From: Paracoccus sigandri
Lineage (GTDB): Bacteria > Pseudomonadota > Alphaproteobacteria > Rhodobacterales > Rhodobacteraceae
Assembly: GCF_003709565.1 (NCBI RefSeq)
Contig: NZ_QNRC01000021.1
Span: forward strand, 1-64,000
Length of the DNA stretch: 64,000 nucleotides
Direction: 5' to 3'
Part shown: positions 17,920 through 37,806 of the stretch, in pieces
Numbering within the stretch: position 1 is the first letter of the stretch
Layout of the letters: every line of letters starts with the position of its first letter
The notes under the pieces: model-generated
The model's database searches: none
Told to the model about the DNA's origin: nothing
The model's input: the letters and a program-made list of their open reading frames with translations, nothing else
Program-made: the position numbers and the translations under genes

Positions 17920-17944
17920 AATCCTTTCGCGGCGCAATTGTTCC
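17920..17944 (-). promoter_or_regulatory. EcfG-type promoter for dodecin
   Basis: GGAAC, 16 bases, GATT on the minus strand, ending 30 bases before the dodecin start. Confidence 0.6.
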
Positions 17945-18006
17945 AGCGCGGACGCGAAAGGCATCGCGGTCTGGGTCCGGAATTGAGGGGGGTCGCGGCG
18001 CTGCCT

Positions 18007-18031
18007 GGAACATCCGCCCGCCGCAAAGGTT
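18007..18031 (+). promoter_or_regulatory. EcfG-type promoter
   Basis: GGAAC, 16 bases, GGTT; 22 bases before the start of the small gene at 18054. Confidence 0.7.
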
Positions 18032-18053
18032 AGGCGCGACTGGAGGACATATC

Positions 18054-18257
18054 ATGACCATGGACCAGTCGAAACGGCCCACCCCCGTCGCGGACCCGGA
18101 AGGCAAGGATGAAGGCGTATCACGCAAGCCGAAGGGGACCGAAGATAGCCGCCCGGAATCCGCCAAGCCCGTGAAGCCCGGCGGCCAGAAGCCGGATACG
18201 GCGATGTGCGAGAACCGCCGCCATCCCGGCATGATCGACAAGAACGAGGACTGCTGA
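18054..18257 (+). CDS. small hydrophilic stress protein (hypothetical)
   Basis: 67 residues, very rich in Lys, Pro, Glu and Asp, with no predicted globular core: probably intrinsically disordered. ATG with GGAGGA 7 bases upstream. The C-terminus carries a small conserved-looking Cys-containing segment (CENRRHPGMIDKNEDC). The EcfG-type promoter directly upstream is the only functional clue. No family recognised. Confidence 0.7.
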   Translation: MTMDQSKRPTPVADPEGKDEGVSRKPKGTEDSRPESAKPVKPGGQKPDTAMCENRRHPGMIDKNEDC

Positions 18258-18345
18258 GCGATCAGAGCCGGGTTTTGCCCGGCAACTCGTTTCCCGAACG
18301 CAATGGCGCCTTCGCTCCGCCACGGCGGCGTGCAGCGCGGCCCGG

Positions 18346-18957
18346 CTACAACGTGTCGGACAACTGGCGAATGATCGCTTTTCGCCCATGCCGGTTTCGG
18401 ATCTGCTCGGACCAGGGTTTATCGGACCGCAGAAACAGCAGGTTGTTCTCGTTGGTCACATGGAACACGCGGCGCGCTGCGGCGATGCCGGAAGATGCCG
18501 CGGTCACGGCCGCAACGGTTATCTCGATGCGCGTCAGGTCCAGATCCTTCCGCTTCCTTTCGCTGCGCAGCGACGCCCGTTCCAGCAGGTCGTCTATGGA
18601 GCCGATCTCGACATGATCTCCGCTTTTGAGCGGGCGCTGCAGCGTTGCCACGTCAAGCGAAGGCCGGTCGCTCGGATGCAATTCGGCCCTGTCCGTGACC
18701 GATACGACGGATTCCTCGCCCTCGGCGTCGATCTTCAGGACGACATCGAGGACATAGATCGGCTCCAGCCCCAGGTTGCTGATGATGATCCTGCCGGCCA
18801 GCCCCCGGTCGCCTCCCAGGGTGATCAGGATCTCGGTCCGGCGCTGGCGGCGCATCCCCGCCACGAACATGTGCAGATAGGTGATCCAGACCAGGGCCGT
18901 CACCATGCCGACCATCGCCTGGACCACCGTGCTGTGCTGAAGGATCCAGTCCCACAT
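18346..18957 (-). CDS. membrane-anchored hypothetical protein
   Basis: 203 residues. One N-terminal transmembrane helix (about 10-35, VVQAMVGMVTALVWITYLHM) followed by a soluble cytoplasmic domain of mixed beta strands (IIISNLGLEPIYVLDVVL) and a helical C-terminus. No catalytic motif. It follows the HWE kinase gene on the same strand with a gap of 96 bases, so it may be co-transcribed and could be an accessory of that sensor. The function is unknown. Confidence 0.75.
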   Translation of the reverse strand: MWDWILQHSTVVQAMVGMVTALVWITYLHMFVAGMRRQRRTEILITLGGDRGLAGRIIISNLGLEPIYVLDVVLKIDAEGEESVVSVTDRAELHPSDRPSLDVATLQRPLKSGDHVEIGSIDDLLERASLRSERKRKDLDLTRIEITVAAVTAASSGIAAARRVFHVTNENNLLFLRSDKPWSEQIRNRHGRKAIIRQLSDTL

Positions 18958-19053
18958 GACTGCCAGTTAAGAACGGTTGCCGCAGGCGCAAGGCGAGGCC
19001 GGGAAGATCGCGCCCCATGGGCCGTTTTCAGCCGGGTCCCTTCCGGTCTTGCG

Positions 19054-20502
19054 TCACTGCAGGGCGGACAGCTTTTCCCGCCGCTCCAGTTCCCCCAATG
19101 CCTGGACCAGGCTTTCGATCGTGAACGGCTTGGCGATGTAGGACGAGCCCGACCAGCCCGCAGGCAGGGATTCCGGGCCGTATCCGGTGGCGAGGATGAA
19201 CGGGATGCGCCGCTGCGCAAGCGCTTCGACGACGGGCTGGGCGCTGCGTCCCTTCAGATTGGCGTCGACGATGGCCAGATCGATATGCTGCGCCCCGATC
19301 TTTTGCAGCGCCTGATCGATGTTGTAGGCCGGGCCCACGATGCTGCTTCCGGCCGCTTCCAGCGCGGCCGCGATATCCATCGCCACCACGACCTCGTCAT
19401 CGACGACAAGCACCTGCCGATCACGCAGATCCGCCGCATCGCGCGCCGCGCCCCGATCCTTGCCGGCGGATTTTCCCGAGGATGCCTTGGGTTGCCGGGG
19501 ATTGTTCAGCAGAAGTTCCAGCCTGACCCGGCGCTCGGTTCCCGCCTGCTCGATCAGGCTCTGGCCGCCATTCGCATCGGCCACGCGCCGCAGCAACGAA
19601 GTGCCGAAACCTTCGCGCCCCGGTGTTTGCTGGATGCAGATCCCGGTCTCCGTCCAGGTCAGGGCAAGCCGCTGGCCGGCGTCGCAGGCCTCGGTCCGCC
19701 AGTCGACCCGCAGCCGGCCGTGCGTTTGCGACAGGCTGCCATATTTCCGGGCATTGGTCGCCAGTTCGTGGATGACAAGGCACATATGCGTCGCCAGGTC
19801 GCCCTCGATCAGCAGATCCGGTCCGTGAAACGCGCAGCGGTCCCGTTCGCCACCGCGCAGGGCAAGTTCCTCCTCCAGCAGGTCGCGCAGGTTCACCCCG
19901 GCCAGATCCTCGCGCACCAGAAGGTCATGGGCCTGGGCAAGGGCGCGCAGGCGTTCCCTGAACGCGCCGACGAAGGCCTCGGGATCGGGCGCCCCCGCCA
20001 GAGTCTGGGTGGCAATGGACTGCACCACGGCCAGGGTGTTCTTCACCCGGTGGTTCAGTTCGGCGATCAGCAGGGATTGCAGCTCTTCGGCACGTTTCCG
20101 CTCGGTGATGTCGCGGGCGATCTTGGAGGCGCCGACGATATTGCCCAGGCGATTGCGCAGCGGCGACACCGTCAGCGAGACATGCAGCCTTCTGCCGTCC
20201 CTGGTCAGGCGCTGGGTCTCGAAGTGATCGACCCGCTGCCCGTTGCGCAGCAGGCCCAGGATATGCTCCTCCTCCTGCTGCAATTCGGGGGGGATGATGC
20301 ACAGGATCGACTGGCCGACCATCTCCGCCTCGGAATATCCGAAGATCTTCTCGGCCCCCTTGTTCCAGCTGAGGATGATGCCCGACAGGTTCTTGCTGAT
20401 GATGGCATCGTCAGAGGACGAAACGATTGCGGCAAGTCGTTCAAGCTCGGCCTGCTCATCCAGATGCTCCGATGGCATTCCACCCTCCCGAGTATCGTTC
20501 AT
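19054..20502 (-). CDS. PAS-HWE histidine kinase with C-terminal receiver domain
   Basis: 482 residues, soluble. PAS domain at about 22-135 (AIISKNLSGIILSWNKGAEKI ends with the PAC segment DITERKRAEE). HWE kinase core: phospho-His151 in AELNHRVKNTLAVVQS, N-box HELATNARKYG at 245-255, and the family WxE in TWTETG at about 283-285. A receiver domain (about 363-475) follows, with acidic pocket DDE at 368-370, phospho-Asp413 (IVDANL), Thr in LATGYG and Lys in IAKPF. HWE kinases commonly phosphorylate PhyR in the alphaproteobacterial general stress response, so this is a candidate input kinase for the EcfG system at 34.2 kb. PhyR itself is not in the window. Confidence 0.9.
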   Translation of the reverse strand: MNDTREGGMPSEHLDEQAELERLAAIVSSSDDAIISKNLSGIILSWNKGAEKIFGYSEAEMVGQSILCIIPPELQQEEEHILGLLRNGQRVDHFETQRLTRDGRRLHVSLTVSPLRNRLGNIVGASKIARDITERKRAEELQSLLIAELNHRVKNTLAVVQSIATQTLAGAPDPEAFVGAFRERLRALAQAHDLLVREDLAGVNLRDLLEEELALRGGERDRCAFHGPDLLIEGDLATHMCLVIHELATNARKYGSLSQTHGRLRVDWRTEACDAGQRLALTWTETGICIQQTPGREGFGTSLLRRVADANGGQSLIEQAGTERRVRLELLLNNPRQPKASSGKSAGKDRGAARDAADLRDRQVLVVDDEVVVAMDIAAALEAAGSSIVGPAYNIDQALQKIGAQHIDLAIVDANLKGRSAQPVVEALAQRRIPFILATGYGPESLPAGWSGSSYIAKPFTIESLVQALGELERREKLSALQ

Positions 20503-20649
20503 CCCGCCATTTCACACCCTTGCCGGCAGGAACGCCAGCGAACATGCCGCAAGATTGGCTAATAAAGATCAGTCGATACCAGCGAAAAAGGCACGGCACG
20601 CGATGCGGGCCGGCGGCGCCGCGTGCTTTCTCGCATGGAACGCCGGCCT

Positions 20650-21306
20650 TCAGCCAGGACCGCGTTCCTGGCTTTCGCGAAGCGCGGCGATGACCTCTGC
20701 ATCCTCGACCTGGTCGAAATTCTCGTAATGCAGGCCCACCGCGCGGAAGGGCCAAGGTTCCAACAGGCAGATGATGCGGTCGGCCTCGGGCCGCAATCGC
20801 TCCAGCGCATCCGGCGCGGCGACCGGCACGGCCAGGACGATCTCGGCGGGCTTCAGCCGGGCCAGCGCCCGCAATGCGGCCAGGGCCGTCGCGCCGGTGG
20901 CGATGCCGTCATCGACCAGGATCGCGCAGCGCCCCGCCACCGGCACCGGCGCCCGGTCGCCCAGATAAAGCTGCCGCCGCCGCTCGATCTCGGCGGTCAG
21001 CCTGCGGATTTCCGCTTCCATATAATCATCGGGCGGCCGGAAAGCCTTGGGAATATGGTCGTTCATCACATGCTGCGGCTGCGCCCCATCGACCACGGCA
21101 CCGATGGCGAATTCGGGATGGCCCGGCGCGCCGATCTTGCGCACCATCAGCAAATCCAGCGGCGCCGACAGCCGCCTTGCGATCTCGGCAGCGACCGGCA
21201 CGCCGCCGCGCGGCAAGGCCAGGACCACGCAATCGCGGTCGCGGTAATCCGTCAGCCGCCCGGCCAGGCGGCAGCCGGCATCGCGTCGATCGGGAAAGCG
21301 TTCCAT
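20650..21306 (-). CDS. phosphoribosyltransferase-fold protein
   Basis: 218 residues. Type I PRTase fold with the PRPP loop ILVDDGIATGATALAAL and an early conserved VVLALPRGGVPVAAEIARRL. Proteins of this architecture (often annotated 'phosphoribosyltransferase family', sometimes linked to dienelactone-hydrolase domains) occur in stress clusters; the base substrate is unknown. The hood region is unusual (NDHIPKAFRPPDDYMEAEI). It is the last gene in a same-strand series beginning at 22126. Confidence 0.85.
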   Translation of the reverse strand: MERFPDRRDAGCRLAGRLTDYRDRDCVVLALPRGGVPVAAEIARRLSAPLDLLMVRKIGAPGHPEFAIGAVVDGAQPQHVMNDHIPKAFRPPDDYMEAEIRRLTAEIERRRQLYLGDRAPVPVAGRCAILVDDGIATGATALAALRALARLKPAEIVLAVPVAAPDALERLRPEADRIICLLEPWPFRAVGLHYENFDQVEDAEVIAALRESQERGPG

Positions 21307-21462
21307 GACGACCTCCTGTGCCAGAGTGCCATCCCTCGAGAGAGTCGACCAGCATCAGCAGCCCATGAGCGGCCCGCCTGCCGAACCGTCGCCCGGCCGC
21401 GGCATCGTCAGGGGGGCGGCATCCCTGCCGTCCGGGCGCTGGCCTGTGCCACGGCGGGATCG

Positions 21463-21651
21463 TCAGCCGGCGTCGTCAGGCGGCTTCCGTGGCTGGGCCC
21501 TGCCCTGCGGCGTGGCGTCCTCCTTGCCGGCCTCGCGCCGGTCCGAGGATTTCAGATCGGGGCGCGGATCGAAATCCGCGCCGGCATTGGTCGTGTCCAC
21601 GCGCTTCTCGATGATGCGCCTTTGCTGTTCGCGGGTCTTTTTCCCGATCAT
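21463..21651 (-). CDS. small basic hypothetical protein
   Basis: 62 residues, rich in Arg, Asp and Pro (opens MIGKKTREQQRRIIEKRVD), likely disordered. Third gene of the series 22126 to 20650; it starts 13 bases after the preceding stop. No family recognised. Confidence 0.6.
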   Translation of the reverse strand: MIGKKTREQQRRIIEKRVDTTNAGADFDPRPDLKSSDRREAGKEDATPQGRAQPRKPPDDAG

Positions 21652-21664
21652 GGCGAAAGCCCTT

Positions 21665-21862
21665 CTACTTGTTCGTGCGGCCCTTCTGCCTTGGATCCAC
21701 CGCCCCTTCGGGCGTCGTGTCGTTGAGCACGTCGCCCTCGAAGGTGCTTTCGCCACCGATCTGCGGATCCTTCCGGCTGGCGCCTTTCGAGCGGCCGATC
21801 CCCGGATCGCCCCGCAGGTCGGCATCCGAGGGGTTCTTCGATTTCATGTGCTTCGATGTCAT
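21665..21862 (-). CDS. small hydrophilic hypothetical protein
   Basis: 65 residues, Gly/Asp/Lys-rich with no hydrophobic core (KSKNPSDADLRGDPGIGRSK). AGGGAG precedes the ATG. It lies 21 bases after the 80-residue gene and is probably in the same EcfG-controlled operon. The function is unknown; the composition resembles desiccation- or stress-associated disordered proteins. Confidence 0.65.
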   Translation of the reverse strand: MTSKHMKSKNPSDADLRGDPGIGRSKGASRKDPQIGGESTFEGDVLNDTTPEGAVDPRQKGRTNK

Positions 21863-21883
21863 GGATTTTCTCCCTGGCGGGGG

Positions 21884-22126
21884 TCAGGACCCGCCGTCGT
21901 CCTCGACTTCGCCATCGCGATTGGCGACATGTTCCTGCCCCTGCTGGGTCTGCACATGCCGGGAATCGAGGCCACGTTGATCGGAATGGCGCGACTTGTC
22001 GCGGTTGGTCAGGATTTCGCTGCGCGCGGGCTGCCCGACATCTTCCGGGGCCAGCCCGCCCGAGCCGTCACCCTTGCCCTGATCCTGCTGGCCGGCGCCG
22101 AATTTCTTGCTGCTTGCCCGAGCCAT
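21884..22126 (-). CDS. small disordered stress protein (hypothetical)
   Basis: 80 residues, almost free of hydrophobic clusters, rich in Gly, Gln, Asp and Ser (MARASSKKFGAGQQDQGKGD). The start is fixed by AAGGAGGA 7 bases upstream. First gene of the operon that continues with the 65- and 62-residue proteins and perhaps the phosphoribosyltransferase; an EcfG-type promoter lies 35-59 bases upstream. Confidence 0.7.
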   Translation of the reverse strand: MARASSKKFGAGQQDQGKGDGSGGLAPEDVGQPARSEILTNRDKSRHSDQRGLDSRHVQTQQGQEHVANRDGEVEDDGGS

Positions 22127-22160
22127 GGCATTCCTCCTTCTGTCCGTTGCGAAGGCAGGG

Positions 22161-22185
22161 AACTGGCAGGTCGCGCGATTGTTCC
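22161..22185 (-). promoter_or_regulatory. EcfG-type promoter
   Basis: GGAAC, 16 bases, AGTT on the minus strand, 35 bases before the gene starting at 22126. Confidence 0.65.
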
Positions 22186-22227
22186 TGCACGCCGTCCGGC
22201 ATCTGCCCGTCCGGGCCGGGTCCGGCA

Positions 22228-22252
22228 GGAACATTTCGGCCCCTTGCCCGTT
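22228..22252 (+). promoter_or_regulatory. EcfG-type promoter
   Basis: GGAAC, 16 bases, CGTT (full consensus) 91 bases before 22344; back-to-back with the minus-strand promoter at 22161-22185. Confidence 0.75.
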
Positions 22253-22343
22253 CCCCAGCCCAACCGCCGCATGACGCGGCCCAGCCCGACGGGTCGGGCC
22301 CCGAACGCCGCCATCGCGGCACATCCCGGAACGGAGAAGACCG

Positions 22344-22844
22344 ATGGAAATCCATGACACCTATCTGAGCTGGCTGCGCGACGCCCATGCGATGGAGGAG
22401 CAGGCCCTGGCGATGCTGGCCAGCATGAGCGACCGCCTGGCGCATTACGACAGCCTCCGCGCCCGCATCGACCAGCATATCGCCGAAACCCAGCGCCAGA
22501 AGGAGGCCCTTCGCCAGCTTCTGGAACGCGATTCCGGCACCTCGCTGATGAAGGATGTCAGCGGCAAGATCCTGGCGACCGGCCAGGCGCTGGGGGGCGT
22601 CTTCGCCTCGGACGAGGTCATCAAGGGCACGATCGCGGGCTATACGTTCGAACATATGGAGATCGCATCCTACAACGTCCTGATCGCCACCGCGCGGATC
22701 ATCGGCGACAGCGAGGCGATCAAGATCTATGAGCAGAACCTGGCCGAAGAGCAGTCGATGGCGAACTGGCTGGCGCAGAACATCGAGGCGACCACGGATT
22801 TCTATCTCAGAAGCCTCGGCTCGGACGAGCCGGCGAAAGGCTAG
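22344..22844 (+). CDS. DUF892 (YciE/YciF-like) ferritin-like protein
   Basis: 166 residues, all-helical four-helix-bundle pattern of the ferritin-like DUF892 family: EIHDTYLSWLRDAHAMEEQA, a long second helix with HIAETQRQKEALRQLLER, then EHMEIASYNVLIATAR and EQNLAEEQSMANWLAQNIE, which supply Glu and His ligands. YciE/YciF relatives are stress-induced, and their di-iron role is inferred from structure. A second member of the family lies at 27712. Confidence 0.88.
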   Translation: MEIHDTYLSWLRDAHAMEEQALAMLASMSDRLAHYDSLRARIDQHIAETQRQKEALRQLLERDSGTSLMKDVSGKILATGQALGGVFASDEVIKGTIAGYTFEHMEIASYNVLIATARIIGDSEAIKIYEQNLAEEQSMANWLAQNIEATTDFYLRSLGSDEPAKG

Positions 22845-23087
22845 GGCATCGTCTTTTTCCCGCAGCCCCGCCTTTAATGGTATCGCCCTGCCCCGCGAAG
22901 GCAGGGCGTCCTCTCGCGCCGATGCGGCGAACCGGACAGCGACGCCTTACCCTGCGGCGTCAGAATGGTGTCGTCAAACCCGGCCGTCGCCGCTGATGAG
23001 ATGTTCGGGGCCGCCGCCCGCAAGCGCTGGCGGAAATCGCGCGGGCCGCCGGGGCCGGATGCCCGGCGGCCTGCATGTGCGAATGGC
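22845..23087. other. intergenic, possible decayed sequence
   Basis: About 240 bases between convergent stress genes. It contains an inverted repeat, CCTGCCCCGCGAAGGCAGGG (about 22889-22908), but no T-run and no convincing gene. Confidence 0.4.
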
Positions 23088-23294
23088 TCATTCCCCGCCA
23101 TTGGTGGCGCGGTCGTTCTGGCGCGCCTTGCGGTCGCCGGCTTCGCGGTTCTGCCCGCCGGCATTCGGCTCGTTCGAGCGGTTCTCGTGCTTGGGGTTCA
23201 CGAAGGGGTCGGCCTCGGCCATCTTCGCGTCCTGCGCGCCCTTGCGGATGTTGAACTTCTCGTTTTCGGCTTTGGGGTCGAATTTCTCGGCCAT
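23088..23294 (-). CDS. small hydrophilic stress protein (hypothetical)
   Basis: 68 residues, rich in Asn, Lys, Asp and Arg (MAEKFDPKAENEKFNIRKGA), no hydrophobic core. AGGAGGA 7 bases before the ATG and an EcfG-type promoter (CGTT) 26-50 bases upstream. It lies between the glucose dehydrogenase and the DUF892 gene. No known family, but the composition suits a desiccation/osmotic protectant. Confidence 0.7.
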   Translation of the reverse strand: MAEKFDPKAENEKFNIRKGAQDAKMAEADPFVNPKHENRSNEPNAGGQNREAGDRKARQNDRATNGGE

Positions 23295-23319
23295 GTTGAT
23301 CTTCCTCCTGTCGGGGCGG

Positions 23320-23344
23320 AACGGCCTGGCCGGGCAGATGTTCC
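23320..23344 (-). promoter_or_regulatory. EcfG-type promoter
   Basis: GGAAC, 16 bases, CGTT on the minus strand, 26 bases before 23294. Confidence 0.75.
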
Positions 23345-23370
23345 TGCCCTTCCGGCGAAAGTTGCGCGGC

Positions 23371-25776
23371 TCAGGTCCCGTCGGGCAGCGCCCAGGCGAT
23401 GAAATGGTCGCCGATCGGCGTTTCCATGAAGGTATGCCCGCCCGCGTTGATGACCAGGTACTGGCGGCCCTCGACCTCATAGACGGCGGGTCCGGCCTGG
23501 CCGCCCGCCGGCAGGGTGTCGCGCCACAATTCCTCGCCGGTCTCGATGTCGATGGCGCGGATCAGGTTGTCGGTGGTCGCGGCGATGAAGATCAGCCCCG
23601 ACGCAGTCACCACCGCGCCGCCGTTGTTCGGCGTGCCGATGGTGAAGGGCAGCCCCGACGGAATACCCCAGGGCCCGTCGCCGCGCGCCGTGCCGAAGGG
23701 CTTGTCCCACAGCACCTCGCGCGTTTGCAGGTCCACGGCCATGATCCCGCCATAGGGCGGCTGGGTGCACAGAAGCTGGGTAAAGGGCACGCGCCAGCCG
23801 GCATTCACCTCGATCCCATAGGGCGTGTCGGCCTGCGGAGAGACATCCTCGGGGCTGTTGTCGGCCCAGCCGGGTTCGTCGATGGGCACCACACCATATT
23901 CATCGACCTGCTCGCGCGGCACCAGCCGGGTGCGGTTGGCGGTGATGTTGTAATTGGCGACCATGATCCCGCGTCCGGGATCGACCGCCACCCCGCCCCA
24001 GTCCGAGCCGCCGTTATAGCCGGGAAACTGGATCCACCAATCGGTCGAGGGCGGCGTATAGATGCCCTCGTAGCGGCTCTGGCGATACTGGATGCGACAG
24101 AACAGCTGGTCCAGGGGCGTCATCCCCCACATGTGGCGCTCCTCCAGGTCGGGCTTCAGCAGGTTGGGAAAATCCACAACGAAGGGCTGGGTCGGCGACA
24201 GCCGATCGGGCTCGACCCCGCCCTGGGGAACGGGGCGGTCCTCGACCTCGACCAGCAATTCGCCGGTGCGGCGGTCGAAGATCCAGAACATGGACTGCTT
24301 GGTGGGCAGGACCAGCGCCGGGACCGGGCCGTCGGGCGTCGGAAAGTCGATCAGCGTCCCCTGCGAGCCCAGGTCGTAGTCCCAGATGTCATAGCGGACG
24401 GTCTGGTAATGCCAGGCGACCTCGCCGGTCTCGACATCCAGCGCCACCAGCGCGGTGGAATATTCGTTCTCGGCATCCGAGCGGTCGCCGCCCCAGTAAT
24501 CCACCGCCGAATTGCCATGCGGCAGATAGACCAGCCCCAATTCGTCGTCGCCCGAGGCGATGGTCCAGACATTGGGCGTGCCGCGCGTATAGGTCTCGCC
24601 CTCGGCCGGGGGGCCGATTTCGCCGGGGCGCCCCATGTCCCAGGCCCACAGCATTTCCCCGCTGGCGGCGTCATAGCCCCGCACCACGCCCGAGGGCGCG
24701 TCGCGGCGCTGGCCGTCGCGGACCTGCGAATGCACCACCGCGACGTCGCGCACGATGGTCGGCGGCGAGGTCGGCGCATACCAGCCCGGCACGGTGCGGC
24801 CGATGCCTTCCTCCAGATCGACGCTGCCGCCGTCGCCGAAGCCCTCGCACAGCTGGCCGGTCCGCACGTCCACCGCCAGAAGCCGCGCGTCCAGCGTGTT
24901 CATCAGCACGCGCTCGGCGCAGGGGTCATCCTGGGACAGGTCGGGCGCGGCGTAATAGGCCAGCCCGCGGCAGGTCGCGTTATAGGGGATCGCATCAGGC
25001 GAAACCCCCGGATCGTGGCGCCACAGTTCCAGCCCGGTCGCGGCATCCAGCGCGATCACCTGGTTCATCGCGGAACAGACCAGCAGCCGGTCGCCGATCT
25101 TCAGCGGCGTGTTCTGGTTGGAAAACCGTTCGTCCGCCTCGGGCATGTCGCCGGTGCGGAATTCCCAGACCTGCTCCAGATCGCCGACATTGGCGGGGGT
25201 GATCTGTTCCAGCGACGAAAAGCGGGTGGCGTGATGGGTGCCGCCATAGGCTGGCCAGTCCGCCCCGGCCTGCGGCTGCGCGCTGGCCGGCGGGTCGGGA
25301 TCGTCGCCGGTGGCCTGCTGGGCAAGGGCGACAATATCGCCGCGTGCAGCCAGCAGCGCGGTCGCGGCAAGCCCCGCAATGGCCGCGACCCCGGCAATGG
25401 TCCTGCGGTATCGCGGCCGCCCGCCGCGCAGCACCGGCAAGGTCAGCACGACCAGGACCAGCACAACGGATGGCGCGACCAGCCGGGGGACCTGCGCCCA
25501 GCCGTCCAGGCCGGCCTCCCACAAGGCCCAGGCCAGGGTTCCGGCGAAGGTCAGCAGATAGACCCACAGCGCGGCGATGGAGCGGCGGAACAGCAGCCAT
25601 GCCGTGACCAGCAGTCCCAGCCCGGCGAACAGGTAATACCACGATCCGCCCAGCACGATCAGCCAGACGCCGCCGCCGAGGATCGGCGCCCCGAAGATCA
25701 CCAGAACGACCCCCAGAAGCATGGTAAGGGCCACGCCCAGGCCGCGGGACGTGCCTGGCTTGCCGGAGGCTGCCAT
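23371..25776 (-). CDS. gcd: membrane-bound PQQ-dependent glucose dehydrogenase family
   Basis: 801 residues, the usual length. The N-terminal 130 residues hold about five transmembrane helices (PILGGGVWLIVLGGSWYYLF onward) that anchor the enzyme and bind ubiquinone. The periplasmic remainder is an eight-bladed quinoprotein propeller with motifs LPHGNSAVDYWGGDRSD, YDIWDYDLGSQGTLIDFP and ERHMWGMTPLDQLFCRIQYR that match glucose rather than methanol dehydrogenases. It oxidises aldoses to lactones and passes electrons to ubiquinone. A quinate or shikimate dehydrogenase of the same subfamily cannot be excluded. An EcfG-type promoter precedes it, an unusual placement. Confidence 0.88.
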   Translation of the reverse strand: MAASGKPGTSRGLGVALTMLLGVVLVIFGAPILGGGVWLIVLGGSWYYLFAGLGLLVTAWLLFRRSIAALWVYLLTFAGTLAWALWEAGLDGWAQVPRLVAPSVVLVLVVLTLPVLRGGRPRYRRTIAGVAAIAGLAATALLAARGDIVALAQQATGDDPDPPASAQPQAGADWPAYGGTHHATRFSSLEQITPANVGDLEQVWEFRTGDMPEADERFSNQNTPLKIGDRLLVCSAMNQVIALDAATGLELWRHDPGVSPDAIPYNATCRGLAYYAAPDLSQDDPCAERVLMNTLDARLLAVDVRTGQLCEGFGDGGSVDLEEGIGRTVPGWYAPTSPPTIVRDVAVVHSQVRDGQRRDAPSGVVRGYDAASGEMLWAWDMGRPGEIGPPAEGETYTRGTPNVWTIASGDDELGLVYLPHGNSAVDYWGGDRSDAENEYSTALVALDVETGEVAWHYQTVRYDIWDYDLGSQGTLIDFPTPDGPVPALVLPTKQSMFWIFDRRTGELLVEVEDRPVPQGGVEPDRLSPTQPFVVDFPNLLKPDLEERHMWGMTPLDQLFCRIQYRQSRYEGIYTPPSTDWWIQFPGYNGGSDWGGVAVDPGRGIMVANYNITANRTRLVPREQVDEYGVVPIDEPGWADNSPEDVSPQADTPYGIEVNAGWRVPFTQLLCTQPPYGGIMAVDLQTREVLWDKPFGTARGDGPWGIPSGLPFTIGTPNNGGAVVTASGLIFIAATTDNLIRAIDIETGEELWRDTLPAGGQAGPAVYEVEGRQYLVINAGGHTFMETPIGDHFIAWALPDGT

Positions 25777-25806
25777 ATCCTTTCCTCCCTGTTTTCCGGG
25801 TCATGC

Positions 25807-25831
25807 AACAGGAAAGCCGGGGAAATGTTCC
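25807..25831 (-). promoter_or_regulatory. EcfG-type promoter for the glucose dehydrogenase
   Basis: GGAAC, 16 bases, TGTT on the minus strand, 31 bases before 25776. Confidence 0.7.
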
Positions 25832-30100: not shown

Positions 30101-30144
30101 ACGGCCGGGCCCGCCGGGGCCGCCGCCTTGACCAGCACGGGTCG

Positions 30145-30169
30145 GGAACATTTCGGCCGCCATCTTGTT
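30145..30169 (+). promoter_or_regulatory. EcfG-type promoter
   Basis: GGAAC, 16 bases, TGTT, 76 bases before 30246. Confidence 0.7.
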
Positions 30170-30245
30170 TCCGGCCGGTTCCGACATGGGACCGGGCGCG
30201 GATGCCGGCGGTTCCTTTCCCAGCTTTCGCACAGGAGGACATCTG

Positions 30246-30554: not shown

Positions 30555-30567
30555 GGGTCCGGGTGGC

Positions 30568-31464: not shown

Positions 31465-31532
31465 TCATTTCCGTGTCGAACGGATTTGCCGCGTGGCGCC
31501 GGCAGGAACCCTTTGCGGCCTCGCGGGTGGCG

Positions 31533-31557
31533 GGAACATTCCGGCGCGATGAAGGTT
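31533..31557 (+). promoter_or_regulatory. EcfG-type promoter for the Mn catalase
   Basis: GGAAC, 16 bases, GGTT, 47 bases before 31605. Confidence 0.7.
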
Positions 31558-31604
31558 GCTCGCCCTCCACGGGTTTGCAGAACCCCCTGAAAGGGAGAAA
31601 GCAC

Positions 31605-32531
31605 ATGTTCCTGCGCATCGACAGATTGCAGATCGACCTGCCCGCCCCCAAGCGGCAGGACGCGAACGCGGCGGCGGCGCTGCAAGAGCTTCTGGGCGGC
31701 AAATACGGCGAGATGTCCACCCTGGGCAACTACATGTTCCAGAGCTTCAACTTCCGCAGCAAGAGCAAGCTGCGGCCGTTCTATGGCCTCGTCGCGGCGA
31801 TCACGGCCGAGGAACTGGGCCATGTCGAGCTGGTCAGCAACGGGGTGGCGATGCTGGCCAACGGGCCGGATGCGGATCGGGACGACCAGGGGCCGGGCGG
31901 CGACATCTCGGACGCCCCGTTCGAGGCGATGAAGGATGCGCGGCTGGCCGCGGCCTTCTACTCGAACGGCGGCGGGGCGGTTCCGGTCAACAGCAACGGG
32001 CAGTCCTGGAACAGCGACATGGTGACCACGACGGGCAATGTCGTCGTGGACCTGCTGCACAACTTCCACCTGGAATGCGGCGCCCGGCTGCACAAGCTGC
32101 GCGTCTATGAAAGCCTGACCGACCCGACCGGCCGCGAGGTCTGCGGCTATCTGCTGGTGCGTGGCTCGGTCCATGCGCATGCCTACGCGCTGGCGCTGAA
32201 GAAGATCACCGGGGTGGACCTGGACAAGTTCCTGCCGACGCCGAACATCCCCTTGGGCAATATCCCCGAATGCCAGAAATACCTGGAAGAGGGCGCGCAT
32301 CGCCGGCTCTATACCTTCAGCCCGGACGACTATCAGGAGATGCGGGGGATCTGGGGCAATGGCGAGGTGGCGCTGCCCGACGACCCGCCCGGAGAACTGG
32401 AGGTGGTGGACGGCGCGCCGGAGGGCGGCAAGATCCACGACCTGACCGGCACGCCCTCGGCCTTCACCCCCGATTACGCACCCGAGGAAATGTTCGAGAT
32501 CGCCAGCAAGCTGTATCAGAAATCGCGATAA
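31605..32531 (+). CDS. manganese catalase
   Basis: 308 residues, the usual length. The dimanganese site is visible: Glu36 in KYGEMSTLGNYM, the Glu-His pair in ITAEELGHVE (about 67-75), and Glu/His in NFHLECGARLHKLRVYE; the Mn-catalase-specific NSNGQSWNSD lies between. It disproportionates hydrogen peroxide without haem, in the cytosol. AGGGAGA precedes the ATG and an EcfG-type promoter lies 47 bases upstream. Confidence 0.95.
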   Translation: MFLRIDRLQIDLPAPKRQDANAAAALQELLGGKYGEMSTLGNYMFQSFNFRSKSKLRPFYGLVAAITAEELGHVELVSNGVAMLANGPDADRDDQGPGGDISDAPFEAMKDARLAAAFYSNGGGAVPVNSNGQSWNSDMVTTTGNVVVDLLHNFHLECGARLHKLRVYESLTDPTGREVCGYLLVRGSVHAHAYALALKKITGVDLDKFLPTPNIPLGNIPECQKYLEEGAHRRLYTFSPDDYQEMRGIWGNGEVALPDDPPGELEVVDGAPEGGKIHDLTGTPSAFTPDYAPEEMFEIASKLYQKSR

Positions 32532-32677
32532 GCGGGGTCGCGGGCGGCGCATCATCGCCGGGGCCGACGGTCGTCCGGCTCCTCTCGGGGCCGGTTGCGA
32601 CGCGGCCGGGGATGGGCCTTCCCCCGACCATCTGCAGCGAAGCCCTGGGCTTTCGGGCAGATGGTCGGGGCGCGGGG

Positions 32678-32896
32678 TCAGAAGATCCGGCCCGTGCCTG
32701 CCGGCAGCGGATCGGCGACGGGCAGCGGGCACAGGCGGCGCTGCGCCTCCCTGACCAGGATCCGGCCCAGTTCGGCCCCCAGTCTGTCGGGATCGTCGTC
32801 CTCCAGGTCCAGGCCGACGATGTCATCCGATCTGACATGGACGGCGCCGCCGTCATAGAGGTTGAAATGCAGGGTGACCGAGGTCAGCCGGGTCAT
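32678..32896 (-). CDS. small hypothetical protein
   Basis: 72 residues with an alternating beta pattern (VTLHFNLYDGGAVHVRSDDI) followed by an acidic turn and a helix. AAGGA precedes the ATG. It lies 109 bases after the PRC-barrel protein gene on the same strand and may share its EcfG-type promoter. No family recognised. Confidence 0.65.
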   Translation of the reverse strand: MTRLTSVTLHFNLYDGGAVHVRSDDIVGLDLEDDDPDRLGAELGRILVREAQRRLCPLPVADPLPAGTGRIF

Positions 32897-33005
32897 GTTC
32901 TTGTCCTTTCGGGGATGAGGATGGTCAATCGTGGTCGGTCGGGGGATCCGCCGCGACCTGCGCAGCGGATCCCGGAGCCTTCGCCGGAACGCGGGAAGGC
33001 GGCTC

Positions 33006-33647
33006 TCAGCCCCCGGTCGTGTCGGGGTCGTCCTCGTCGAATTCGGGCAGCGCCTCCAGCTGTTCCTGGGTCCAGGGCAGGTAGATGCGCAGCTCGTCCT
33101 CATTCGTGAACACCACCAGGTCGGCGACGGGAATCGCCACCCGATGTTCGCCCAGGCCAAGGAAACCGCCGACATCGATGATCGCATGGGTGATCTCGGC
33201 GCTTTCCAGCGGCATCTGATCCACGGGTCCCGGATCCCCCACGGTGCCCTGCGCCGCGCCGGCCTGCGTCGTGGTCTCGTCGATCTGGCCTGCGGAACCG
33301 GCGGCATCGTCGGCGGCGCCCTCGGTTTCCGCTGCGGCATCATCGGGGGGCGTCGCGGCCGCCCCATCGCCATTCGCGCCGCCGATGGAGGAGCTGCCGT
33401 TGGAGAAGACCAGGCCGTGAACCTCGCCGATCTCGTCGCCATCCGCGTCATGGACGGTCGCGCCTTCAAGATTGTCGGTGGACAGGACCACGTTCTCCTC
33501 GGCAAAGCCTTCGGGCGGGGTGATGGTCAGCCGGGCGTCGGTCTGCGTCGCGGTGGCGTCGGGCGCCTCTTCGCTTTCCGTCTGGGCATGGGCGGGCAGG
33601 CAAAGAAGGCTTGCCGCAAGGGCGGATGTCGCCAGCAGTTTTCGCAT
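33006..33647 (-). CDS. secreted PRC-barrel domain protein
   Basis: 213 residues from the ATG 7 bases after AGGAGG; a GTG six bases upstream is an alternative. Signal peptide about 1-23 (ends PAHAQ). Two PRC-barrel-like beta segments (GATVHDADGDEIGEVHGLVF and HAIIDVGGFLGLGEHRVAIP) are split by an Ala/Gly/Asp-rich linker of about 60 residues. Proteins of this type are periplasmic and stress-associated in alphaproteobacteria, with unknown function. EcfG-type promoter 44 bases upstream. Confidence 0.85.
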   Translation of the reverse strand: MRKLLATSALAASLLCLPAHAQTESEEAPDATATQTDARLTITPPEGFAEENVVLSTDNLEGATVHDADGDEIGEVHGLVFSNGSSSIGGANGDGAAATPPDDAAAETEGAADDAAGSAGQIDETTTQAGAAQGTVGDPGPVDQMPLESAEITHAIIDVGGFLGLGEHRVAIPVADLVVFTNEDELRIYLPWTQEQLEALPEFDEDDPDTTGG

Positions 33648-33690
33648 GTTCACTCCTCCTGAAAATCGATGTTGCTTGCATCGGCGCCAT

Positions 33691-33715
33691 AATCTTTCCA
33701 GGCGGCAAATGTTCC
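33691..33715 (-). promoter_or_regulatory. EcfG-type promoter
   Basis: GGAAC, 16 bases, GATT on the minus strand, 44 bases before 33647. Confidence 0.6.
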
Positions 33716-33735
33716 CGCGCGGCGTGACCGGATGG

Positions 33736-33760
33736 GGAACAAGACCGCGCGGCAGCCGTT
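33736..33760 (+). promoter_or_regulatory. EcfG-type promoter
   Basis: GGAAC, 16 bases, CGTT (full consensus), 31 bases before 33792. Confidence 0.75.
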
Positions 33761-33791
33761 CCCCTTCCCAACGACGTCACAGGGGGACGAC

Positions 33792-33980
33792 ATGGCCAAT
33801 GGAACCACCCGGCTTCGGGGAATTACCGTCGAGAGAACCGGGGACGGTTTCCTCATTCACCTTGCCGACGACGCGGATGAGGTGTTCGAGATCCGCGCGA
33901 GTGCGGAAACCGTCGAACTGATGGTGAGCGAGCTTCAGATGGCGCTGGCCGCGGGCGCAGAGGGATCGCCTTCGGAATGA
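33792..33980 (+). CDS. small hypothetical protein
   Basis: 62 residues: a short beta-rich part (ITVERTGDGFLIHLADDADE) and one amphipathic helix (ETVELMVSELQMALAAG). GGGGA precedes the ATG. Own EcfG-type promoter; the next gene on this strand is the ECF sigma factor. No family recognised. Confidence 0.7.
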   Translation: MANGTTRLRGITVERTGDGFLIHLADDADEVFEIRASAETVELMVSELQMALAAGAEGSPSE

Positions 33981-34020
33981 CGGCAAAGGCACCGGCGCCG
34001 GGGACAGGGTCGCATGGCGG

Positions 34021-34037
34021 TTTGCGGCAGCCGCAAA
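34021..34037 (+). terminator. stem-loop after the small gene, terminator-like
   Basis: TTTGCGGC-A-GCCGCAAA, a perfect 8-base inverted repeat 40 bases after the stop at 33980, followed by AA rather than a T-run. It separates the small gene from ecfG. Confidence 0.4.
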
Positions 34038-34072
34038 AAGCCGTGCCACAATCGGAGACTGCACGTCCTGTG

Positions 34073-34118
34073 CCTGCAATCTGCGGATTGCAGGGAACCG
34101 AAGCCTGCGGGTTGCATT
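34073..34118 (+). promoter_or_regulatory. dyad overlapping a variant EcfG-type promoter of ecfG
   Basis: CCTGCAATC-tgcg-GATTGCAGG (34073-34094) is a perfect 9-base inverted repeat. Its last two bases form the start of GGAAC (34094-34098), which is followed 16 bases later by CATT, a departure from the NGTT/GATT used elsewhere. CTGCGG(A/G)TTGCA is also directly repeated at 34081 and 34106. The arrangement suggests autoregulation modulated by another DNA-binding protein. Confidence 0.5.
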
Positions 34119-34159
34119 GGGTTGGTTGGAGAGGAAAGGCAGACGCCTGATGGCTGACC

Positions 34160-34639
34160 ATGTCGGATGATATCCTGACGCATGTAAGGGCGCTGCGCGC
34201 CTATGCCCGTTCGCTGTGCGGGACCGCCGCCGATGCCGAGGACCTGGTGCAGGAAACGCTGCTGCGCGCCATCGAGAAGGCGGACAGCTATCAGCCGGGA
34301 ACGCATATGCGCGCCTGGCTGTTCACCATCATGCGCAACAAGTTCTTCACCGACGTGAAGAAGGCGGCGCGCGAGCGGACCGGCAGCGGCGACTGCGCCT
34401 CGACCCAGCCCTCGGTGCCCGCCGGCCAGGAATGGCATCTGCGTCACCAGGAACTGCGCGTCGCGCTGAACGAGATGCCGCTGCACTATCGCGAGGCGAT
34501 CGTCCTGGTGGCGGTGATCGGCGAAAGCTATCTGGACGCCGCCCGGATCCTCGATTGCGACATCGGCACCATCAAGAGCCGGGTCAACCGCGCCAGGAAC
34601 ATCCTTCGGCGCGCGCTGGAGCCCGAGCATAACGATTGA
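34160..34639 (+). CDS. ecfG: ECF sigma factor, EcfG (general stress response) type
   Basis: 159 residues. Sigma-70 region 2 (about 8-75): RAYARSLCGTAADAEDLVQETLLRAI and AWLFTIMRNKFFTDV. Region 4 (about 100-155): LNEMPLHYREAIVLVAVIGESYLDAARIL, then the recognition helix region GTIKSRVNRARNIL. Region 3 is absent, as in all ECF factors. The EcfG assignment rests on the short length, the convergent NepR-like gene and the many GGAAC-N16-GTT promoters nearby. EcfG is normally held by NepR and released when phospho-PhyR binds NepR. Confidence 0.85.
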   Translation: MSDDILTHVRALRAYARSLCGTAADAEDLVQETLLRAIEKADSYQPGTHMRAWLFTIMRNKFFTDVKKAARERTGSGDCASTQPSVPAGQEWHLRHQELRVALNEMPLHYREAIVLVAVIGESYLDAARILDCDIGTIKSRVNRARNILRRALEPEHND

Positions 34640-34672
34640 CCGCGCCGCCGGGGCGCGGCAGGTCCGGGCCGG

Positions 34673-34840
34673 TCATTTCATCCGCGACTTGCGGCTTCTC
34701 TCCAGCGCGGCCTCCAGCTGCCGGGCCAGTTCGCGCAGCCGCGGCGAGATCGGTTCGGCATCCACCTGCGCCAGAAGCTCGGACAAGGCGGCGTCCAGTT
34801 TTGGATCCAGCGCCGGATCTTCATTCGTGTCGCGGTTCAT
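34673..34840 (-). CDS. nepR: NepR-like anti-sigma factor
   Basis: 55 residues, convergent with ecfG (33 bases between stops). ATG with GGAG 8 bases upstream. The two-helix NepR pattern is recognisable: ALSELLAQVDAEPI followed by PRLRELARQLEAALERS fits LxxLLxxVxxEPI-xxLxxLxxxL. NepR sequesters EcfG until phosphorylated PhyR takes it away. The protein is shorter than average and the identification depends partly on context. Confidence 0.65.
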   Translation of the reverse strand: MNRDTNEDPALDPKLDAALSELLAQVDAEPISPRLRELARQLEAALERSRKSRMK

Positions 34841-35174
34841 TCAAAGCTCCAGATGCGCCTCTTCAGTTGCCTTATGTTAAGCCATCCCCGCTGTGCAAGG
34901 GGGCACGATCATCCAAATTTGTCCCGTGGTGTTGCAGGTTTTCCCAGTTTTTCGCACCGTTCACGGCAGTTCCCGGCGGCATCCGCTTCCCGACAGATGC
35001 CTTCTGCTCAACGGGTTAGGCAAGACATCTGCCCCCGGAACGGCGCAAGGTTTCGCCCGTCGCGCAGGCCTGACAACAGGATGTTCCCGGATTTGTTCCT
35101 GAAGATTCCCGCTTACCCGGTCCCGCGCCGTCAGGGTTCCGCGAGGCCGTCGCGATGGCTGCGCGCCAGGCCGA
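34841..35174. other. long leader region upstream of nepR
   Basis: 334 bases with no gene on either strand. It contains a minus-strand EcfG-type promoter (35075-35099) whose transcript would have a leader of about 230 bases before nepR, or could be a separate small RNA. AT content rises locally (34870-34960) on the nepR side. Confidence 0.45.
35075..35099 (-). promoter_or_regulatory. EcfG-type promoter pointing at nepR
   Basis: GGAAC, 16 bases, TGTT on the minus strand; a second GGAAC lies 7 bases inside the spacer. The nearest minus-strand gene is nepR, about 235 bases away. Confidence 0.5.
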
Positions 35175-37457
35175 TCAGTCCGCCGCAATCCTGACGGGCA
35201 CGGATTTGGCGGCCGGCGTCTTGCTTTTCTCATCGTGATGCCACAGCGGGATCAGCGCGTTGCATTCGGGATAATAGGCGGCGATCGTGCCCGCCGGCAG
35301 GTCGCGGTCGATCGCGCGGAAACCGCCCATGCTGCGAGTCACGCCGTCCTGTGCCGCACAGGTCAGGCGCACCATGCCGCCGCTTGCGATACCGTGCCGG
35401 ATGCGGTCGTCGGGATTGAGCATGACGATCATCCGCGATCCGTAGATCCCGCGCAGCCGGTCGTCATGGCCATAGATGGTGGTGTTGAACTGATCGTTCG
35501 AGCGCAGGGTAATGAGGCGCAGGATATCGCCATCCTCCCCCGCGCCGGCATCCGCCGACAGCGCGCGGGGGCGCAGGAAATTCGCCTTGCCGCTGTCGGT
35601 TTCCCACTGGCGCCGCCGCGCCGGGACGGGCCGGGCAAAGCCGCCGGGCAGGTCCAGCCTGCCGTTGAAGTCGCGGAAATCATCGGGGAAGCTGGCCTCG
35701 ATCGCATCGCGGATCAGCGCGTAATCCGCCACCCATTCCTGCCACGGCACCGCCGGATTGTCGGGCAGCGTGGCCTGGGCGATCCCCGCCACGATGCGCG
35801 GCTCGGACAGCAGCTCCGGGCTGGCCGGGCGGAACTTGCCGCGCGAGGCATGGATGCAGGTGGTCGAATCCTCCATCGTGACGATCTGCGGGCCGGTCGC
35901 CTGCTGGTCGATCTCGGAGCGCACCAGGGTCGGCAGCAGGAAGCTGCTGCGTGCCGGCACCAGATGGGTGCGGTTCAGCTTGGTCGCGATCTGCACGGAC
36001 AGGTCCATCCCGGCCCATGCCCGCTCCATCAGCTCGCGTTCGGGGACCGCGCGCAGGAAATTGCCGCCCAGGCCCAGGAAGGCCCGCACCCGGCCCGCGA
36101 TCACGGCCTCGCAGACCTCGACGGTGTTCATCCCGTCCTTGCGCGGCGGCTGGAACCCGTATTGCGCGGCCAGCCGGTCCAGCGGCACCAGATCCGTCTT
36201 TTCCGCGATGCCGACGGTGCGCTGGCCCTGCACGTTGGAATGGCCGCGCACCGGGCAGATGCCCGCGCCCGGCCGTCCGATATTGCCGCACATCAGCAGC
36301 AGGTTGATCAGCATCTGCACATTGTCGCAGCCCAGCCGGTGCTGGGTCAGGCCCATGCCATAGACCGCGATGACCGAGCGCGCCCCGGCATAGGTGCGGG
36401 CGGCAGCCTCCAGCGCGGCGCGCGGCAACCCGCTGACGGCGGTGATCCGCGACCAGTCGGCGGCCCTGACCTGCCGCTGGAACGCCTCGAACCCCTGCGT
36501 ATGCTCGGCGATGAAATCCGCATCGAGGATAGGCTCCGACCCGCTTGCCTTCGCCGCGTCGTCCCATTCCAGCAGTGCCTTGGCCATGCCGGTCATGGCC
36601 GCGATGTCGCCCGCCGCCGAGACCTGGTAATATTGCGTGGCGATCCGGGTGGGCCGGTTCGCCAGCATCTGGCCGGGACGCTGGGGATTGACGAATTCTT
36701 CCCAACCGCGTTCGCGCAGGGGGTTGAAGACCACCACCGGCACGCCGCGGTCCCGCAGCTTCTGCAACTCGTGCAGCAGGCGGGGAGAGTTGGTGCCGAC
36801 ATTCTGGCCGAAGGACAGCACGCAGTCGGTCCTTTCGAAATCCTCCAGCAGAATCGTGCCGACCGGCGTGCCGATGCTTTCGGGCAGCGCGACCGAGGTG
36901 GTCTCGTGGCACATGTTCGAACTGTCGGGCAGGTTGTTGGTGCCGTAAAGCCGGGCCAGCAGCTGATACATGTAGGAGGTCTCCAGCGAGGCCCGCCCCG
37001 AGGCGTAGAACACCACGCTGTCGGGATCGCGCCCCTTCAGCCCGGCGCCAATCTCCGCGAAGGCGTCCTGCCAGGATACCGGAAGATACCTGTCGCTGGC
37101 CGCGTCATAGCGCATCGGATGGGTCAGCCTGCCCTGGTTTTCCAGGTCGTGGTCGGACCATGCGCGCAGGTCCGAGACCCTGTGCGTGGCAAAGAACTCG
37201 GGCGGGACGCGCCTGGAGGTCAGGTCCCAGAAGGTGGCCTTGGCGCCGTTCTCGCAGAACTCTCCGACATGCGGTCGGGCCGGCTTCGCCCATGCGCAGC
37301 TGGTGCACATGTAGCCGCCGGTCTTGTTGTGATCGCGAAACAGCCCCGGCCCGGCGCGGAGGGCGCGCTGGCGCAGGACGTGCCGGGCCAGTGACTTGAT
37401 CGACCCCCAGCCGCCGGTCGGCTGACGATAGGGTTTGTCGCGCGTGCTGTCTGTCAT
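35175..37457 (-). CDS. FdhF/YdeP-family molybdopterin oxidoreductase
   Basis: 760 residues, the size of E. coli YdeP. ATG preceded by AAGGAGG. It has an N-terminal Cys cluster likely binding 4Fe-4S (GGYMCTSCAWAKPARPH, then FCENGAKA), the bis-MGD body (SSNMCHETTSVALPESIGTP, YGMGLTQHRLGCDNVQM, MCGNIGRPGAGICPVRGHSN) and the C-terminal molydopterin dinucleotide-binding domain (ITLRSNDQFNTTIYGHDDR). No Tat or Sec signal, so cytoplasmic. Related proteins resemble formate dehydrogenase H but their substrate is unsettled; YdeP is linked to acid stress. EcfG-type promoter 22 bases upstream. Confidence 0.88.
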   Translation of the reverse strand: MTDSTRDKPYRQPTGGWGSIKSLARHVLRQRALRAGPGLFRDHNKTGGYMCTSCAWAKPARPHVGEFCENGAKATFWDLTSRRVPPEFFATHRVSDLRAWSDHDLENQGRLTHPMRYDAASDRYLPVSWQDAFAEIGAGLKGRDPDSVVFYASGRASLETSYMYQLLARLYGTNNLPDSSNMCHETTSVALPESIGTPVGTILLEDFERTDCVLSFGQNVGTNSPRLLHELQKLRDRGVPVVVFNPLRERGWEEFVNPQRPGQMLANRPTRIATQYYQVSAAGDIAAMTGMAKALLEWDDAAKASGSEPILDADFIAEHTQGFEAFQRQVRAADWSRITAVSGLPRAALEAAARTYAGARSVIAVYGMGLTQHRLGCDNVQMLINLLLMCGNIGRPGAGICPVRGHSNVQGQRTVGIAEKTDLVPLDRLAAQYGFQPPRKDGMNTVEVCEAVIAGRVRAFLGLGGNFLRAVPERELMERAWAGMDLSVQIATKLNRTHLVPARSSFLLPTLVRSEIDQQATGPQIVTMEDSTTCIHASRGKFRPASPELLSEPRIVAGIAQATLPDNPAVPWQEWVADYALIRDAIEASFPDDFRDFNGRLDLPGGFARPVPARRRQWETDSGKANFLRPRALSADAGAGEDGDILRLITLRSNDQFNTTIYGHDDRLRGIYGSRMIVMLNPDDRIRHGIASGGMVRLTCAAQDGVTRSMGGFRAIDRDLPAGTIAAYYPECNALIPLWHHDEKSKTPAAKSVPVRIAAD

Positions 37458-37478
37458 AACATCCTCCTTGGGGATGCG

Positions 37479-37503
37479 AACCGGCAGGCGGGGGATATGT
37501 TCC
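37479..37503 (-). promoter_or_regulatory. EcfG-type promoter for the YdeP-like gene
   Basis: GGAAC, 16 bases, GGTT on the minus strand, 22 bases before 37457. The rightmost such site in the window. Confidence 0.7.
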
Positions 37504-37802: not shown

Positions 37803-37806
37803 GCGC

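Follow-up and report, generated by a model that had tools for sequence, protein, structure and literature searches.

At least two EcfG-like sigma factor genes are carried by half of the completed alphaproteobacterial genomes, and the extra copies are described, in the accessible part of the source, as not satisfactorily explained (PMC3892343). Here we describe a block of EcfG-type promoter sites gathered around such an additional sigma gene in Paracoccus sigandri, at positions 17920 to 37503 of a 64,000-nucleotide stretch (the window) that is part of contig C30 (NZ_QNRC01000021.1) in a genome of 4.90 Mb and 115 contigs. The experimental parallel comes from Sinorhizobium meliloti, in which the canonical RpoE2 activates rpoE5, a pSymB-borne ECF15 (extracytoplasmic function) sigma gene whose listed promoter reads GGAACC...GGCATT in the available sections of the report (PMC6180224). 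We found the identical sequence upstream of the EcfG paralog in one of our comparison loci, L182, which is therefore rpoE5, with 7 strand matches to GGAAC-N17-GTT (N17) in the 20 kb around it. Like the window, S. meliloti has a second EcfG-type sigma with a GGAACC...CATT promoter and, downstream of its gene on the opposite strand, an open reading frame (ORF), there RsiA1-like (PMC6180224, same sections); the annotated downstream ORF of L182 had no Pfam match and was not detected by our NepR-like query. The two differ in that a single target was seen on RpoE5 overexpression (PMC6180224), whereas the window's genome has 13 of its 29 GGAACAW-N15-GTT sites (AW sites) around the sigma gene.

Other described systems share features with this locus, as far as the accessible text of each report goes. 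The EcfG1 and EcfG2 sigma factors of Rhizobium etli are likewise a canonical chromosomal copy and a non-canonical paralog of an entirely plasmid-borne subgroup, but they are reported to act in parallel rather than serially and no clustered regulon is stated (PMC3892343). Sphingopyxis granuli has an EcfG1/EcfG2 hierarchy with GGAAC-N16-CGTT before nepR2; CATT is a frequent −10 box there and proved weaker than CGTT when placed in Pgsp. Its ecfG genes, however, are divergent neighbors with nepR2, and no clustered regulon is mentioned (PMC7083833). Methylobacterium extorquens (EcfG1 to EcfG6) has several EcfG and NepR paralogs, but no EcfG paralog at the phyR locus and none found with an EcfG-type promoter ahead of it (PMC4814048). 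Plasmid pDSHI02 (153 kb) of Dinoroseobacter shibae carries sigma, kinase, and small genes, presumably the published stress-induced ones (PMC4373377), but in the canonical response regulator/NepR/sigma/kinase arrangement. A limited search of the open-access literature returned no Paracoccus EcfG paralog and no clustered EcfG regulon, and a description in print elsewhere is possible. The regulator is of a known kind; its arrangement in the block is real, recurs, and is absent from the descriptions in the literature searched.

A sequence-only reading of the window had proposed fifteen sites of identical spacing (13 NGTT, 2 GATT), each pointing at a nearby gene start and confined to 17.9 to 37.5 kb, and our pattern searches bore this out. 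Its N16-NGTT form, searched as GGAAC-N17-GTT, occurs at 13 distinct places, all within 18007 to 37503, and gives 18 strand matches, since 5 of the 13 places match both strands because CC comes after GTT; 100 dinucleotide shuffles gave a mean of 0.76 and a maximum of 4. The GGAAC-N16-GATT form adds two matches, at 17920 and 33691, a pair not striking alone (shuffle mean 0.33, maximum 2). The rest of the window holds no site of either form. When the spacing was varied from 12 to 24 across 17.6 to 38.3 kb, N17 gave 18 matches and every other spacing 0 to 3. Fourteen of the fifteen sites end 21 to 91 nt before a gene start, and the remaining one (35075) lies 234 nt from a NepR-like ORF. These 14 include sites 33736 and 37479, which our simple gene caller's own starts placed inside coding sequence, and for which we read starts at 33792 and 37457 ourselves (33793 was used in the distance calculation for the former). 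We also found a 16th site missed by the sequence-only reading, GGAAC-N16-CATT at 34094 to 34118, 41 nt before the sigma gene.

A scan of the whole genome, as that reading had suggested, confirmed the concentration and showed that the sites are not equally dense everywhere. There are 29 AW sites genome-wide against 4 for the reversed pattern used as a control, and the 13 within the block, 0.4% of the genome, amount to about 200-fold the density of the remainder. A position weight matrix trained on the block's own 15 sites agreed. At a score of 16 it matched the block 16 times and the window's remaining 43.3 kb not once, and a 400-kb sample of the remaining genome gave 3 and its reverse 2; at a score of 10, the same two samples gave 56 and 24. 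By the gene caller, 10 of the 16 AW sites outside the block are in coding sequence and 6 are not; a Cu/Zn superoxide dismutase gene follows one of the 6 at a distance of 31 nt. One of the 10, on contig C71, was scored as coding for its overlap with the tail of the ORF ahead of it, and is followed 25 nt later by a Ku gene. The same contig (locus L089, 6237 to 10342) carries a pair of Ku genes along with a LigD gene of full length, and N17 sites lie close by. At one base more of spacing (N18), the AW pattern occurs 8 times genome-wide against 3 for the reversed control; 6 of the 8 are intergenic by the gene caller and 5 have a start within 106 nt, so N18-spaced promoters probably exist in this genome as well. 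Three loci of this genome (L059, L063, and L064) have N18-spaced GGAACAW sites 34 to 71 nt before genes, among them those for transglycosylase-associated (GlsB-like) and weakly DUF1269-like proteins.

The sigma gene of the block (34160 to 34639, plus strand, 159 aa) encodes, by its domains, best structure match, and phylogenetic position, an EcfG-type ECF sigma factor, a divergent paralog of the canonical EcfG. Its Pfam matches are Sigma70_r2 (5e-18), PhyR_sigma2 (7e-14), and Sigma70_r4_2 (2e-11), and its best solved structure is 5uxx_A (E=3e-33), chain B of which is NepR. It has sigma2 and sigma4 domains and is closest to the EcfG/PhyR type, and GGAAC-N16/17-GTT promoter forms surround the gene; it is, however, neither adjacent to phyR or nepR nor within the canonical Paracoccus clade. 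A tree built from 61 sigma sequences, rooted for drawing only and with long branches flagged, puts the canonical Paracoccus EcfG sequences together on one side of a branch (97/99), the window sigma not among them. Of 83 rows it leaves out 22, of which 7 are duplicates, fragments, or second hits from the same species or in tandem, and the other 15 are canonical ones removed by thinning. The canonical PhyR-NepR-EcfG locus lies on another contig (C83, 96362 to 98011), and we rejected the block as the canonical stress locus. The earlier view of a concentrated block of EcfG-type promoters with a sigma factor inside it holds; the block is, however, the neighborhood of a paralog and not the general-stress locus itself. 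A PhyR paralog within the block was also considered and rejected, as the PhyR_sigma2 search there matched only the sigma factor. Closer relatives of this sigma were found on Paracoccus, Pleomorphomonas, Roseinatronobacter, and Pararhodobacter contigs, in one unclassified metagenome-assembled genome, and on plasmids, the last from a plasmid-only collection. Restriction of the paralog to plasmids was rejected, since Paracoccus alcaliphilus has two copies on a 3.56-Mb contig.

The clustering of exactly spaced sites is a property of paralog neighborhoods and not of canonical ones. In 22 paralog loci (422 kb) we found 106 N17 matches, 0 to 9 per locus, with 5 to 16 for each remaining spacing in the range 13 to 22, whereas 20 canonical ecfG neighborhoods (400 kb) gave 15 at N17, 22 at N18 (nepR promoters included), and 2 to 15 elsewhere; 400 kb of the window's own genome gave 6 at N17. 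For AW sites the contrast was 74 in the paralog loci against 1 in the canonical loci, and the base after GGAAC was A in 78 of the 106 N17 sites of the paralog neighborhoods. Paralog loci on six other-genus plasmids, hand-picked from 1141 plasmid records, had 44 matches at N17, 18 at N18, and 0 to 6 at other spacings. Ten Paracoccus plasmids (nine with the sigma gene, one with the catalase only) had 1 to 15 AW sites each, against 0 to 2 for the control.

We propose, with a slightly better than even chance of being right, that the block gathers in one place the regulon of a second, non-canonical EcfG, itself switched on by the canonical one in a cascade. Under stress, the PhyR-NepR-EcfG switch on contig C83 would free canonical EcfG, which would transcribe the paralog gene from the GGAACC-N15-CATT site at 34094 (34094 to 34118, plus strand, GGAACCGAAGCCTGCGGGTTGCATT). 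The paralog would then transcribe its neighbors from GGAACAW-N15-GTT promoters, the proposed targets being those for catalase, DUF892, DJ-1, LigD polymerase, the PQQ dehydrogenase, a YdeP-like oxidoreductase, and small proteins. The NepR-like protein, itself behind an EcfG-type site here, may restrain the paralog. The sites, their exact spacing and positions, the paralogy, the conserved clustering, and a site ahead of the sigma gene that some of the relatives share are observed directly. We infer the pairing of sigma factors with sites, the anti-sigma action, the signal, and the role of the kinase by reasoning from these arrangements, with S. meliloti as the one experimental parallel.

The putative anti-sigma factor of this cascade is encoded by an ORF of 55 aa (34673 to 34840, minus strand), divergent in sequence and assigned by weak profile similarity. 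The window's protein does not match the Pfam NepR family PF18557, which is matched by 2 of 27 members of its family (best, 7.9e-4), and a whole-genome NepR search found only the C83 copy. The family profile aligned to canonical NepR at E=1.4e-4 (hhalign, probability 52), and the top two matches of a PDB search were NepR, both weak (E=0.04 and 0.06). In these three comparisons the family weakly resembles NepR. Homologs of the ORF occur in the sigma loci of 15 of 22 relatives, 13 of them upstream of the sigma gene on the same strand, and the ORF is convergent with the sigma gene in the window and in P. alcaliphilus. The earlier statement that the block holds a sigma factor, a NepR-like gene, and an HWE kinase thus stands for position, all three being inside, with the NepR-like gene lacking a Pfam NepR match of its own.

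That the paralog reads the AW sites is likely from a comparison of 121 genomes of the genus, 42 with the paralog (E <= 1e-40) and 79 without. The mean number of AW sites per genome was 28.7 with the paralog and 13.3 without (6.86 vs 3.63 per Mb), against 5.7 and 4.7 for the reversed control, a difference with p=1e-10 on counts, uncorrected. In neither group did the GGAACC-N16-GTT class exceed its control (34.0 vs 40.9 and 29.5 vs 31.5); the ratio did not differ (p=0.25), while raw counts did (p=0.007). The sigma factors also differ in a stretch that we take to be the −35 recognition helix. It reads KSRANRGR in 28 of 28 canonical rows, the own sequence being included twice, and KSR[VIM][NSHG]R[AG]R in those paralog rows that entered the tally. 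Rows without the pattern, 15 of 83, are not counted: L104, L124, two second hits in tandem, and 11 rows of the paralog or of other genera.

Several observations weigh against the cascade and the regulon. Phylogenetic correction, run on the 29 genomes for which a canonical locus was available (9 with the paralog), shrinks the effect to p=0.065 on log and 0.042 on raw counts, and genomes without the paralog reach 35 AW sites, which means that the sites have other users too; because of this marginal p value and these site-rich genomes, we hold its reading of the sites likely and no more. Four of the 22 paralog loci hold only 0 to 2 N17 sites, and P. alcaliphilus p429813, the closest plasmid relative, has one AW site in 430 kb. 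A site lies within 110 nt before the sigma gene in only 16 of 48 rows, and within 500 nt in 26. A site within 500 nt was seen in only 6 of the 28 NepR-like ORFs examined, and the link of this ORF to NepR is weak at the hhalign probability given above. The sigma-gene sites and the recognition helices are conserved by descent and so not independent; the sigma-gene and nepR site sets, in particular, are each one promoter across many species. Finally, the single target obtained on RpoE5 overexpression, as listed in the accessible data (PMC6180224), speaks against a large regulon in S. meliloti.

The last point also favors an alternative account, in which canonical EcfG alone reads all the promoters and the paralog is a minor or vestigial regulon member among the targets. 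RpoE2 overexpression in S. meliloti affected 320 genes, directly and indirectly, against the one for RpoE5 (PMC6180224), and the M. extorquens EcfG consensus, GAAC-N16,17-C/GGTT, covers such spacing (PMC4814048), both as given in the available sections. The paralog-less genomes, moreover, exceed their control in AW sites as noted above, although some of these sites recur and resemble conserved coding sequence. The sites, however, cluster at the paralog and not at canonical ecfG, their number is higher where the paralog is present, and the recognition helices of the two sigma factors differ. We regard this account as rather unlikely.

The site ahead of the sigma gene bears on a second alternative, that two sigma factors act in parallel on overlapping promoters with no cascade, as in R. 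etli, where EcfG2 is largely independent of EcfG1 in the accessible text and its subgroup entirely plasmid-borne (PMC3892343). Against this, the window sigma gene is preceded by its GGAACC...CATT site, and 15 of the 47 other rows have a similar site no more than 110 nt ahead of the gene, in the CATT form in 12, with control patterns in 1 of 48; the promoter from which RpoE2 activates rpoE5 has the same form in the part of the report available (PMC6180224). The base after GGAAC in the 16 sites within 110 nt is C in 13, T in 2, G in 1, and A in none, a tally beyond which 10 further rows have a site farther upstream; the window's site 400 nt before the sigma gene is GGAACA. Canonical nepR promoters, 22 sites from the 21 of 30 loci where our regular expression found nepR, read GGAACC in 18. 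Parallel action is distinctly unlikely on these grounds. Spacing as the rule that distinguishes the two sigma factors was rejected, as the same nepR promoters mix N18 (13) with N17 (9). In 19 relatives, N18-spaced AW sites exceed their control weakly (132 vs 78), those at N17 numbering 456 against 130.

As a tentative possibility going beyond the cascade, the stress response of Paracoccus may be split, the canonical sigma reading GGAACC promoters and the paralog GGAACA promoters through different recognition helices, with the paralog's regulon held in cis with its sigma and anti-sigma genes as a module reshuffled and moved between chromosome and plasmid. A regulon gathered around an extra sigma factor would be a concrete candidate function for additional EcfG copies, and the base that follows the −35 box would provide a promoter code that can be tested directly. 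The locus would also be a natural system in which to ask why a stress regulon stays clustered, whether because co-transfer is easier or because a scarce sigma factor is used locally.

A third alternative, that the block is a mobile stress island acquired whole through horizontal transfer, is favored by plasmid relatives of the sigma, a plasmid-like right flank, and a truncated gene at the edge, but is very unlikely given that the window has no tRNA, the block has neither integrase nor transposase families among its 27 genes nor an anomalous G+C content, and its order is shuffled relative to the P. alcaliphilus chromosome, so that it is not one intact unit. Positions 18464 to 38061 are homologous to a single P. 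alcaliphilus chromosomal region on the main, 3.56-Mb contig, as about 14 rearranged blastn pieces with gaps, their span there being about 64 kb of an 80-kb stretch compared; adjacent pieces are often collinear and groups of pieces shuffled. That region holds two sigma copies and 21 AW sites, and lacks a blastn match to 18958 to 22224, which includes the kinase gene. The right edge of homology, at 38061, falls in an isochorismatase-like gene (37807 to 38163) without its first half, and farther right the matched pieces of 45.5 to 59 kb share 94% identity with Paracoccus denitrificans plasmid 1. The family search covered all 27 called genes of the block among 36 of the window's 67, and the block's G+C (0.656 to 0.695) is like that of its surroundings. 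The earlier suggestion of a mobile or horizontally inherited island thus survives in part: the plasmid relatives, the truncated edge, and the rearranged homology suggest movement and rearrangement between replicons, the machinery for which was not seen in the block genes. The window also holds a probable remnant at 8007 to 8585, which is 67 to 76% similar to P. alcaliphilus DNA that overlaps genes for IS5-family transposases, and, immediately to the right of the block, a 93% direct repeat at 38540 to 39055 and 39311 to 39827, in a stretch of low G+C (0.56) near a DUF4123 gene.

The genes of the left half, with their EcfG-type sites by pattern match, begin with dodecin (17687 to 17890, minus; Pfam 7.8e-23), preceded by the GATT-form site at 17920 to 17944 (minus), and a small ORF at 18054, preceded by 18007 to 18031 (plus). 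The PAS-HWE histidine kinase gene (19054 to 20478, minus; HWE_HK 1.8e-27, PAS, and a C-terminal receiver, Response_reg) has no EcfG-type site directly ahead. Palindromic sites precede ORF 22126 (22161 to 22185, minus; other-strand match from 22159, plus), a DUF892 gene (22228 to 22252, plus; gene 22344 to 22844, plus, Pfam 1.8e-41), and ORF 23294 (23320 to 23344, minus). The membrane PQQ-dependent dehydrogenase gene (23371 to 25776, minus; TIGR03074 over cut-off) follows the site at 25807 to 25831 (minus), and ORF 25917 the palindromic one at 25861 to 25885 (plus). An ExoD-family gene lies at 26167 to 26721 (minus; Pfam 5.8e-41).

Farther right, ORF 27506 follows 27535 to 27559 (minus), and 27639 to 27663 (plus) precedes a second DUF892 gene (27712 to 28212, plus; Pfam 6.6e-63) and a DJ-1/PfpI-family gene (28248 to 28796, plus; Pfam 3.2e-53). 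A DNA topoisomerase IB gene (29039 to 30100, plus; Pfam 4.1e-40) comes next. The site at 30145 to 30169 (plus) precedes ORF 30246 and then the LigD primase-polymerase domain gene (30568 to 31464, plus; Pfam 1.1e-93), whose DNA is 95% identical to the final portion of the gene for the 814-aa LigD of contig C71. Manganese catalase (31605 to 32531, plus; Pfam 1.8e-61) follows 31533 to 31557 (plus), and the PRC-barrel gene (33006 to 33647, minus; Pfam 1.4e-5) follows the GATT-form site at 33691 to 33715 (minus). The remaining sites are a palindromic one at 33736 to 33760 (plus) before the small ORF that starts at 33792, that of the NepR-like ORF at 35075 to 35099 (minus), and 37479 to 37503 (minus), 21 nt before the FdhF/YdeP-family molybdopterin oxidoreductase gene (35175 to 37457, minus; TIGR01701 over cut-off, the longer ORF having been scanned). 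Outside the block, a cobalamin riboswitch (59797 to 59991, E=1e-32), the only Rfam match, precedes a TonB-dependent receptor gene at 60101 to 62272.

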